A stretch of DNA of 64,000 nucleotides from Gracilibacillus lacisalsi DSM 19029 (GTDB lineage: Bacteria > Bacillota > Bacilli > Bacillales > Amphibacillaceae). The position numbers and the translations under genes are program-made. The stretch covers positions 186,001 through 250,000 of the forward strand of contig NZ_KB898667.1 of assembly GCF_000377765.1 (NCBI RefSeq), read 5' to 3'. The notes beneath the pieces were generated by a model. That model saw only the letters and a program-made list of their open reading frames with translations. It was not told the DNA's origin and ran no database searches. Below are positions 57,733 to 60,482 of the stretch, in pieces. Numbering within the stretch: position 1 is the first letter of the stretch; each line of letters begins with the position of its first letter.

Positions 57733-58881
57733 ATGAAGATTATTGTGGCAGGAGGAGATGGCTTCTGTGGATGGCCAACTGCTCTCTATTTATCCAAACA
57801 AGGACATGAAGTTTCTATTATTGATAACTATGTAAGAAGAAAAATTGACAATGAGCTACACTCTAATTCATTAACACCTATTGCTTCATTAGAAGAGCGA
57901 GTAGCAAAGTGGAAAGAATTAACTGGTAAACAAATTAATTTATATGAAGGTGATTTAACACATTACGACTTTTTAAAAGAAGTGTTAAAACAAGAACTAC
58001 CAGATGCATTTGTTCATTTTGCTGAACAACGCTCTGCTCCCTATTCGATGATTGACAGAGAACATGCGGTCTATACGCAGGAAAATAATGTGACGGGGAC
58101 ATTAAATGTACTGTTTGGTATAAAAGAAATCGTTCCGGATTGTCATTTAATTAAATTAGGTACACTAGGGGAATATGGAACACCAAATATTCCAATTGAA
58201 GAAGGTTACCTTGAAATAGAACATAAAGGTAGAAAGGATACCCTACCATTTCCGAAACAGCCAGGTTCTTTCTATCATTTATCTAAAGTGCATGATAGTC
58301 ATAACATTATGTTTGCTTGCAAAATCTGGGGTATTCGAGCAACTGATTTGAATCAAGGTATTGTGTACGGGTTAGAAACGGACGAAACGAAATTAGATCC
58401 AGTTCTTACTAATCGTTTAGATTATGACGGTGTTTTCGGTACTGCTTTAAATCGTTTTATTATCCAAGCAACTGTTGGACAAGATTTAACAGTGTATGGA
58501 AAAGGTGGGCAAACGAGAGGATTTTTAAACATTAAGGATACCGTTCGCTGTATTGAGATAGCAGCGGAAAACCCGGCAGACCATGGTGAATTCCGTGTAT
58601 TCAATCAATTTACTGAACAGTTCTCGGTAGGAGATCTAGCAGAAAAAGTACAAAAAGTTGCTCAAGAAGAAGGCTTTGAAACAAACATAGCACATTTAGA
58701 AAACCCACGAGTTGAGCTTGAAGAACATTTTTTTGAAGCAGCTAATACAAAATTAAAGGATCTTGGATTAGAACCTTATCTTCTTGACGAAAATGTAATA
58801 AGAGAAATTCTACGAACGGTAATAACATATAAAGATCGAGTTATAGAAAATAATATCTTACCACAAGTGAAATGGAAATAA
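57733..58881 (+). CDS. sqdB: UDP-sulfoquinovose synthase (SqdB/SQD1)
   Basis: 382-residue extended short-chain dehydrogenase that makes UDP-sulfoquinovose from UDP-glucose and sulfite, using tightly bound NAD. The N-terminal site [16 protein letters not shown] (6-21) and DNYVRRKID replace the usual epimerase GxxGxxG pattern exactly as in SQD1. The signatures [36 protein letters not shown] and [14 protein letters not shown] are specific for this enzyme. Catalytic residues align as Thr144, Tyr181 and Lys185, one off the plant numbering. Ribosome site GAGAAGGTGGGAGAAGA. First gene of a three-gene unit with sqdX and a GtrA-family gene. Confidence 0.93.
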
Positions 58882-58911
58882 TTGAACTAGAAGAATAAGG
58901 GTGATCTAGCA

Positions 58912-60054
58912 ATGCACATACTTATCATCACGGAAACGTTTCTACCTTCTACAGATGGTGTGGTAACAAGGTTAACTAACAGTATTCGCTATTTTTTAAA
59001 AAACGGACATCAGGTGACAGTAATTGCGCCGGATTTAGGAGTAAATGAATTCGAAGGGGCAAAAGTAATCGGGTTATCAGCTCGTAAATTACCGTTTTAT
59101 CGCTCGAAAGCTTTTGCCTTACCAAGCCATCGCGTGAAAAAGCTAATCATGCAATGTGATCCAGATGTTGTTCACGTAGTTAATCCGGCGCTACTTGGCG
59201 CCACAGGTGTTCACTTTGCCAAAAAACTTGGCTATCCGTTAATAGCGTCGTATCACACACAGGTCCCCAAGTATGCTGAGTATTATCATTTATCGATATT
59301 TAAAGGGATTCTCTGGTGGTATTTTCGTAAATTACATAATAAGGCTACGATTAACCTCTGTACATCAAATGTGGTAAAACAAGAATTAGACCAACAGCAG
59401 TTCCATAATGTACATGTATGGAAACGAGGTGTAGATACGAGCCTTTTTCATCCAAATAAGGCGGACTCGGAGATGCGAACTCGATTAACAAATGGAATCG
59501 ATGATAAAAAGCTCTTATTATATGTTGGCAGACTTGCGCCAGAAAAAGAAATAGAAAAGATCCGAACAGTTTTAGAACAATCCGACCAATTCGTATTGGC
59601 GATTGTAGGTGATGGACCTCACAGAGCAGAATTGGAACAACATTTTCAAGGGACAAATACGGTATTTACCGGATTTATGCATGGGGAAGAGTTAGCGCAA
59701 GCCTATGCTTCTAGTGATGTGTTTGTATTTCCATCTACAACCGAAACATTAGGTTTAGTACTAATGGAAGCAATGGCATCAGGTTTACCAATTGTTGCGG
59801 CTGACAGCGGACCAACACGTGAACAAATCGAACATGAAAAACACGGCTTATTATATAACTCTGAACGTCTAGAGAGCTTTAAAGACACTGTATTACGATT
59901 AGAAGATGAGGCATTGCGTAATAAACTTGCGGAAAAAGCTTGGCAGGACATTCATGAAATGGGATGGGATGATCAGTCCAAACAAGCGTTAGCCTTTTAT
60001 CAGCAAGTGATCGATTCACACTACAAAGTCTTCGATAAGAAGGAATGTTCATGA
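58912..60054 (+). CDS. sqdX: Glycosyltransferase, probable sulfoquinovosyl-diacylglycerol synthase (SqdX/SQD2-like)
   Basis: 380-residue GT-B, family 4 glycosyltransferase. N-terminal ITETFLPSTDGVVTRLTNSI (6-25), VHVVNPALLGATGVHFAKKL (87-106), SYHTQVPKYAEYY and WKRGVDTSLFHP match SqdX/SQD2 more than general GT4 enzymes. The donor-binding E-x7-E motif is at Glu278-Glu286 (ETLGLVLME), then AMASGLPIVAADSGP. It would transfer sulfoquinovose from UDP-sulfoquinovose to diacylglycerol at the inner face of the membrane. A related role as diglucosyl-DAG or mannosyl transferase is possible from sequence alone, but the adjacent sqdB strongly supports SQDG. Its stop overlaps the next start (ATGA). Confidence 0.85.
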   Translation: MHILIITETFLPSTDGVVTRLTNSIRYFLKNGHQVTVIAPDLGVNEFEGAKVIGLSARKLPFYRSKAFALPSHRVKKLIMQCDPDVVHVVNPALLGATGVHFAKKLGYPLIASYHTQVPKYAEYYHLSIFKGILWWYFRKLHNKATINLCTSNVVKQELDQQQFHNVHVWKRGVDTSLFHPNKADSEMRTRLTNGIDDKKLLLYVGRLAPEKEIEKIRTVLEQSDQFVLAIVGDGPHRAELEQHFQGTNTVFTGFMHGEELAQAYASSDVFVFPSTTETLGLVLMEAMASGLPIVAADSGPTREQIEHEKHGLLYNSERLESFKDTVLRLEDEALRNKLAEKAWQDIHEMGWDDQSKQALAFYQQVIDSHYKVFDKKECS

Positions 60055-60482
60055 AACGAAAAAGTAGTCGTTTTCAATTTTTTCAATTCAGTATTATTGG
60101 TGTCAGTAACGCACTGATAGACATAGGTGTGCTTAACTTACTGTTATTGCTATTCCATACGGAAAAGTCTGCTATGCTTCTTTTATACAATAGTATCTCC
60201 TATTGCCTGGCAATTTTAAATAGTTACATCTGGAATGCTTCCATTACCTTTAACCGCACTTCAAAGGGGAGTTCTTATCAACGTATTGCTTTTTTTGTCC
60301 AAGCTTTGATTAGTTTAGGAATTAGTAACCTCGTTTTCTTGGGGGCTAATTCCTTATTTGCTATACTGGAAATACCAAATTGGTGGCGATATAATCTTTC
60401 CAAAGCCTTAGCAATGGGTTTATCCTCTTTAGCTAGTTTCTTTATGATCAAGTATATGGTATTTAAAGATTACAAAAAATGA
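60051..60482 (+). CDS. GtrA-family membrane protein, possible lipid-linked sugar flippase
   Basis: 143 residues with four membrane helices of the GtrA/DPMS family: FQFSIIGVSNALIDIGVLNL, ISYCLAILNSYIWNASITFN, then two more, ending ASFFMIKYMVFKD. GtrA proteins are thought to move lipid-linked sugars across the membrane. It starts inside the sqdX stop (ATG 60051, AAGGA six bases before), so it is translated with sqdX; here it could carry sulfolipid or a linked intermediate. That role is inference from the operon. Confidence 0.85.
   Translation: MKRKSSRFQFFQFSIIGVSNALIDIGVLNLLLLLFHTEKSAMLLLYNSISYCLAILNSYIWNASITFNRTSKGSSYQRIAFFVQALISLGISNLVFLGANSLFAILEIPNWWRYNLSKALAMGLSSLASFFMIKYMVFKDYKK

Follow-up and report, generated by a model that had tools for sequence, protein, structure and literature searches.

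Bacillus coahuilensis is reported to have sqd1, sqdX and sulfolipid, in PMC4744853 as 'data not shown' and also in PMC2890564. For a cyanobacterial SqdX, that of Synechocystis, diacylglycerol is given as the substrate (PMC7133116). GtrA/GtcA proteins, themselves putative flippases, are thought to flip C55-P-sugars across the membrane (PMC7389260, PMC8035078), and in Listeria GtcA residues R95 and N132 are essential (PMC7389260). Among the matches listed for GtrA, SQDG, flippase and sqdX, no title or abstract opening names a protein for the leaflet transfer of sulfoquinovosyl-diacylglycerol (SQDG), and in one paper of the sulfoquinovosyl literature GtrA stands for a glutamate transporter. Here we describe a locus in which genes for the two SQDG enzymes are followed by a gtrA gene, and we propose that the three form a module that makes and places this anionic glycolipid, the GtrA protein most likely passing SQDG from the inner leaflet into the outer one, a reading to which we give an even chance.

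The locus lies in the window, by which we mean the whole 64,000-nucleotide stretch that was analysed (G000:C6:186001-250000); its gene content, together with an earlier note, points to Bacillota as the phylum. An earlier note on this DNA had read sqdB, a GT4 gene and gtrA in succession, and a check of the sequence bears this out: the three ORFs are in place, all on the plus strand (Table 1), as are the SqdB signatures, the catalytic Thr, Tyr and Lys and the stop/start overlap of the last two genes. The spacing between sqdB and sqdX is 30 nt, and the TGA of sqdX (60052-60054) shares an ATGA with the gtrA ATG at 60051. An alternative gtrA start, ATG 60045, would give 145 residues; because of the ATGA overlap and the AAGGAA just upstream we prefer 60051.

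Table 1. Features of the sqd locus (window positions)
Feature	Position	Strand	Basis
Likely terminator of upstream ABC-transporter genes (perfect 14-bp inverted repeat then T)	56760..56792	+	repeat scan, sequence
Likely ribosome-binding site of sqdB, AAGGTGG	57719..57725	+	sequence reading
sqdB: UDP-sulfoquinovose synthase, 382 aa	57733..58881	+	homology to SQD1, conserved catalytic residues, tree clade
Likely ribosome-binding site of sqdX, AAGGGTGA	58897..58904	+	sequence reading
sqdX: SQDG synthase, GT4, 380 aa	58912..60054	+	bit scores against sqdB-near GT4, tree
Likely ribosome-binding site of gtrA, AAGGAA, within sqdX 3' end	60040..60045	+	sequence reading
gtrA: SqdX-linked GtrA-family membrane protein, 143 aa, four predicted TM helices	60051..60482	+	PF04138, structure model, tree

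Upstream, a repeat-bearing spacer separates the ABC-transporter genes from sqdB, and the hairpin of Table 1 likely sets them apart from the sqd unit. Downstream, an OsmC gene follows gtrA after 25 nt with no predicted terminator in between; among 61 loci this neighbour was seen only in the window and at L032 and L033, which come from two congeneric genomes. Scanned for promoters and terminators, 57000-62600 yielded no more than shuffled sequence did. Phosphate control is unsupported: in the 200 nt before sqdB, PhoP-like boxes reached p<0.05 in 5 of 61 loci, the window giving p=0.075, with the B. subtilis consensus, 200 mononucleotide shuffles per locus and starts placed by a fixed offset that is only approximate for loci with the second type of SqdB, described below. 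The spacer holds a member of an intergenic repeat family, the copy right before sqdB (56781-57500) being 92% identical over 707 nt to 33334-34036; partial copies lie at 8558-8960 and 61871-62038, other parts of the genome contain more pieces (L179, L234), and at L032 sqdB is preceded by a faint copy (70%). The repeat is predicted to fold strongly as RNA (z -8.1 against 20 shuffles). A SAM riboswitch was also found in the window, at 28155-28261 on the minus strand (100.9 bits).

Residues 2-382 of the window's SqdB match SQD1 from the PDB at 560 bits, far beyond chance, and an end-to-end alignment with plant SQD1 gives 63% identity, which supports the identity proposed in the earlier note, UDP-sulfoquinovose synthase. 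The 11-residue signature begins at residue 98 and YHLSK at 181, and in the alignment T144, Y181 and K185 fall on the three catalytic residues of SQD1, which are T145/Y182/K186 in the numbering of PMC4388408. R100 is probably the equivalent of Arg101 of Agl3, judging by its place in the same invariant stretch. The residue after the catalytic Thr is Leu in the window's SqdB and two more, and Met in 57 of the 60 SqdB ORFs examined; Agl3 is inactivated by Ala at the Met adjoining the corresponding Thr (PMC4388408). The best Pfam family is Epimerase (81 bits, over its cut-off). Against NF041015, the NCBIfam model for UDP-sulfoquinovose synthase, the protein scores 497 bits, under the curated cut-off of 575, which is a naming rule and not the boundary of the enzyme family; none of 398 phylum genomes reaches it, and 14 control genomes gave two matches (Synechococcus elongatus and Sulfolobus acidocaldarius), one of them over the cut-off, and no match in the B. 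subtilis control. From these similarities we infer that sqdB encodes a UDP-sulfoquinovose synthase, making UDP-sulfoquinovose from UDP-glucose and sulfite.

SqdB is present in 66 of the 299 genomes of the order examined, and in 27 of 116 genera. A quick tree of 58 rows places the window's SqdB within a clade of 22 phylum SqdB (support 96), whose neighbours, a group of cyanobacterial, acidobacterial and plant SqdB (89) and a second SqdB type, stand in no settled order. This second type, found in 17 of the 66 SqdB genomes at 47-50% identity, clusters with one alphaproteobacterial and one rhodococcal SqdB (100; 8 rows in the tree). The SqdB of the phylum do not form a single group, comprising the window's clade, which includes G452 and G527, the second type, the pair G621 and G455 beside a Pseudonocardia SqdB, and G662 and G317, which stand apart. 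A recent transfer from cyanobacteria is unsupported, the window's SqdB clade and the phylum SqdX both lying outside the cyanobacterial groups in the quick trees. A plasmid search returned 22 records, all below 60% identity, and four plasmid neighbourhoods examined contained no SqdX-like GT4 and no GtrA match. In four loci (L081, L083, L084, L091) an sqdB of the alphaproteobacterial/rhodococcal type precedes the usual sqdX-gtrA, which suggests that the first gene was replaced in place.

The second gene was compared with 80 reference loci (cyanobacteria, Acidobacteria and one Desulfatirhabdium, up to 4.5 kb on each side of sqdB). At 48 of these, counting three from Acidobacteria and excluding one further 20-bit match, a GT4 gene near sqdB is matched by the window's GT4 at 333-373 bits, against 63 bits for PimA; its best Pfam family is Glycos_transf_1 (116 bits, over the cut-off). 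In a 60-row tree whose reference SqdX are GT4 proteins near sqdB, and which excludes plant SQD2, 33 phylum SqdX (93) stand beside 16 cyanobacterial and 3 acidobacterial sequences (95), all joined at 84, and PimA and the other GT4 proteins of the window's genome fall outside; the tree is a quick one, in which long outgroup rows are unsurely placed and the root is weak. The clustering with cyanobacterial SqdX agrees with the SqdX-type assignment of the earlier note. It had also asked whether the GT4 would group with PimA-like or glucosyl-DAG synthases: the separation from PimA stands, and the other half of the comparison falls away in a tree that held no glucosyl-DAG synthases. They are absent from it because no reference glucosyl-DAG or glucosaminyl-PG synthase was found in 119 phylum genomes searched for each, the former having no match in the controls either. 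As an identity for the GT4, a glucosyl-DAG or glucosaminyl-PG synthase was rejected, the protein scoring 105 and 173 bits on the two NCBIfam models against cut-offs of 400 and 480; a cyanobacterial SqdX scores much the same (100 and 169 bits). No chain named SqdX or SQD2 appears among the best 60 of 65 matches in a sequence search of solved structures. By homology, the GT4 would be an SqdX-type enzyme that moves sulfoquinovose to diacylglycerol at the cytoplasmic side.

A profile of the SqdX family gave 69 matches at 588-674 bits in the 299 genomes, the next match being at 327, and 55 of the 69 adjoin sqdB. SqdB and SqdX occur together in 65 genomes and each without the other in one. One locus (L231) carries a tandem sqdX pair (5805-6932 and 7063-8202), the sqdB of that genome lying on another contig. 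In another (L079) the sqdB match is cut short (query 1-329 of 382) and sqdX has several internal stops, while an SqdX-type gtrA of that genome stands by itself on a different contig (L222).

The third gene follows the other two through the order. In the window and 60 further neighbourhoods, a set covering 61 of the 66 SqdB genomes (5 more were fetched separately), a GT4 gene stands beside sqdB in 55, one of them the broken L079, and GtrA is found in 38. A profile of the GtrA subfamily gave 46 strong copies in 45 of the 299 genomes, of which 44 have SqdB and 43 SqdX. This distribution shows that the GtrA subfamily goes with the SQDG genes, and such tracking (SqdB in 44 of 45 genomes) lends weight to the view of the earlier note that the novelty lies in the third gene. 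The idea that gtrA is always joined to sqdX does not hold: 40 of the 46 copies share the strand of sqdX and lie no more than 300 nt from it, and 23 of the 66 SqdX genomes are without the subfamily. Four copies are away from sqdX in SqdB genomes (L221-L224), one begins a contig with the matching sqdX near the end of another (L226), and one genome, G233 (L220), has the subfamily without SqdB or SqdX. Seven GtrA-less SqdX genomes are in the SqdX tree, six of them in one group (99) shared with G013, whose GtrA is elsewhere. As 23 SqdX genomes lack this GtrA, SQDG synthesis can probably do without it, which counts against a strict need.

Across a phylum sample of 378 genomes the GtrA profile gave 14 matches, five of them above 130 bits, including the window's genome, and all five with SqdB. 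The other nine, at 53-84 bits, are eight fusion proteins of about 900 residues and one more, none among the sample's SqdB genomes; two of the seven SqdB genomes of the sample, G662 and G317, have no match to the profile. The 130-bit line was chosen after the scores were seen and leaves out G200 (56 bits) and these nine phylum genomes. The subfamily is present in the order of the window and also beyond its class. In the 80 reference loci, with up to 4.5 kb on each side, no GtrA was found near sqdB. The eight fusions (L282-L289), from eight other genomes of the phylum, carry an N-terminal GtrA domain, and in the three of the eight searched with Pfam a single chain combines GtrA, GT2 and PMT_2 domains, resembling a fusion of all the parts of a three-component glycosylation system.

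Fisher tests of co-occurrence give p values of about 1e-32 to 1e-35, inflated by shared ancestry. Shared ancestry by itself could account for the linkage if GtrA were a hitch-hiker on an otherwise known SQDG pathway: on an SqdX tree made with FastTree, gtrA adjacency switches only some four times (L063 being scored as gtrA-bearing on an assumed link, since its copy begins another contig), and GtrA-less lineages persist. We consider this improbable, as the linkage holds where the genes are reordered, where sqdB lies apart and where sqdB is of a different type, and matches above 130 bits outside SqdB genomes number one, that in G233. The order is sqdB-sqdX-gtrA in the window and L266, and gtrA-sqdB-sqdX in L267. 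In L280 and L281 a GT4 gene (369 and 300 bits) is followed by gtrA with sqdB elsewhere, L225 is a second sqdX-gtrA pair without sqdB, and in families f39 and f25 an SqdB of the alphaproteobacterial/rhodococcal group adjoins sqdX and gtrA of the usual kinds. Because gtrA stays with sqdX through reordering, unlinking from sqdB and exchange for other sqdB types, a role at SqdX or its product is likelier than one in UDP-sulfoquinovose synthesis.

Such a role need not be transport. The main rival to translocation holds that GtrA is a membrane partner of SqdX, an anchor or activator presenting diacylglycerol to it. The overlap of gtrA with sqdX and their tight linkage even where sqdB is elsewhere (L225, L280, L281) would fit a partner of this kind; pairs of a glycosyltransferase and a small membrane protein, such as GacI/GacJ, are described (PMC8035078), and dolichyl-phosphate mannose synthase (DPMS) holds a GtrA-like part and a glycosyltransferase in one chain. 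It is harder to reconcile with gtrA lying far from sqdX in G004, G013 and G226 and adjoining sqdB rather than sqdX in L267, and one SqdX group manages without GtrA. We regard a partner role as unlikely, though a serious alternative to the translocation of SQDG.

The GtrA protein scores 59.4 bits against its best Pfam family, PF04138 (GtrA_DPMS_TM; gathering cut-off 26.1). Its predicted structure has four long helices (mean pLDDT 84.6), and the best fold match of the model is DPMS (5mlz; E 0.011, probability 1.00, TM 0.45), with no match to solved structures at E 0.001 or less. The predicted fold supports membership of the family, and says nothing of the substrate. In the GtrA tree, which excludes the later-found copies of G621 and G455, the 28 SqdX-linked copies form one clade (100/100) apart from YfhO-linked and other GtrA. 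Residues invariant in SqdX-linked GtrA (24 rows, numbered from ATG 60045) include N59-S60-Y61, N64, T68-F69, Q86, N95, K120 and S131. In an alignment made without Listeria GtcA, the columns likely to correspond to its R95 and N132 hold A (beside an invariant Q) and S in the window's GtrA, and other residues are likewise found there in YfhO-linked GtrA of the order.

The window's genome has one PF04138 protein in all, and no YfhO was found in it. YfhO was surveyed in 40 hand-picked genomes (22 with SqdB and without SqdX-linked GtrA, 17 with it, and G123). It exceeds the cut-off in 13, and 12 of these have another PF04138 gene beside YfhO by coordinates, ten of which were fetched. Among the 17 genomes with SqdX-linked GtrA, 12 are without YfhO over the cut-off and 9 have no other GtrA type; the window's genome is a further case in which the SqdX-linked protein is the sole type, without YfhO. 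The SqdX-linked and YfhO-linked forms coexist in G013, G226, G175, G075 and G237. These results bear on a different rival, in which the GT4 would make polyprenyl-phosphate-sulfoquinovose, GtrA would flip it and a GT-C enzyme would load a surface polymer. C55-P-sugar flipping is indeed the presumed role of GtrA/GtcA (PMC7389260, PMC8035078), yet the GT4 clusters with cyanobacterial SqdX, that of Synechocystis acting on diacylglycerol (PMC7133116), and the described makers of C55-P-sugars have a GT-A fold, not GT4 (PMC8035078). The earlier note had allowed for the sugar being passed to a surface polymer; since the window's genome is without YfhO, the GT-C enzyme covered by the search, YfhO-type transfer is disfavoured, and we give this route little credence.

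For the reading that we prefer, translocation of SQDG by GtrA, the steps would be as follows. By homology, SqdB would convert UDP-glucose and sulfite to UDP-sulfoquinovose, and SqdX would transfer sulfoquinovose to diacylglycerol at the cytoplasmic side. GtrA would then act in the membrane on the SqdX product, most likely letting SQDG of the inner leaflet cross into the outer one, in a manner likened to GtrA with C55-P-sugars and LtaA with diglucosyl-DAG. Given the proposals for the family (PMC7389260, PMC8035078), this is the simplest reading by analogy. We tentatively advance a further proposal, holding it to be somewhat short of an even chance: translocating SQDG would be the dedicated task of the SqdX-linked subfamily, and SQDG leaflet transfer would thereby gain its first assigned protein. 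If true, the range of the GtrA family would widen beyond C55-P-sugars and take in a bulk membrane lipid. A small single-gene candidate tied to the SQDG pathway makes the question of SQDG transfer directly testable.

The locus can be set beside four known systems. Bacillus coahuilensis likewise has both enzymes in a non-photosynthetic Bacillus with sulfolipid in its membranes (PMC4744853, PMC2890564), so with its sqd1, sqdX and sulfolipids already published the two enzymes of the window are not new; compared by the text of the paper alone, it differs in that 'gtra' has 0 occurrences in the main text of PMC4744853, and the novelty of the window's cluster thus lies in the conserved third gene. 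The cyanobacterial sqdB-sqdX loci have the same two enzymes, with an SqdX-like GT4 near sqdB in 48 of the 80 reference loci (three of Acidobacteria), but no GtrA was found near sqdB in the 80, and the window's SqdB clade and the phylum SqdX are not nested within cyanobacteria. The GtcA of the CsbB/GtcA/YfhO system shares PF04138, a small protein of transmembrane helices and a proposed role in translocating glycosylated lipids. In the window, however, the partner is a GT4 enzyme instead of a GT-A-fold glycosyltransferase with a YfhO-type GT-C, no YfhO being found in the genome, and the SqdX-linked GtrA form a different subfamily, whose loops are longer and whose invariant residues are not the same. 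LtaA would share the job of moving a glycosyl-DAG outwards (PMC8866510, PMC8035078), but it is a proton-dependent member of the MFS superfamily (PMC8866510).
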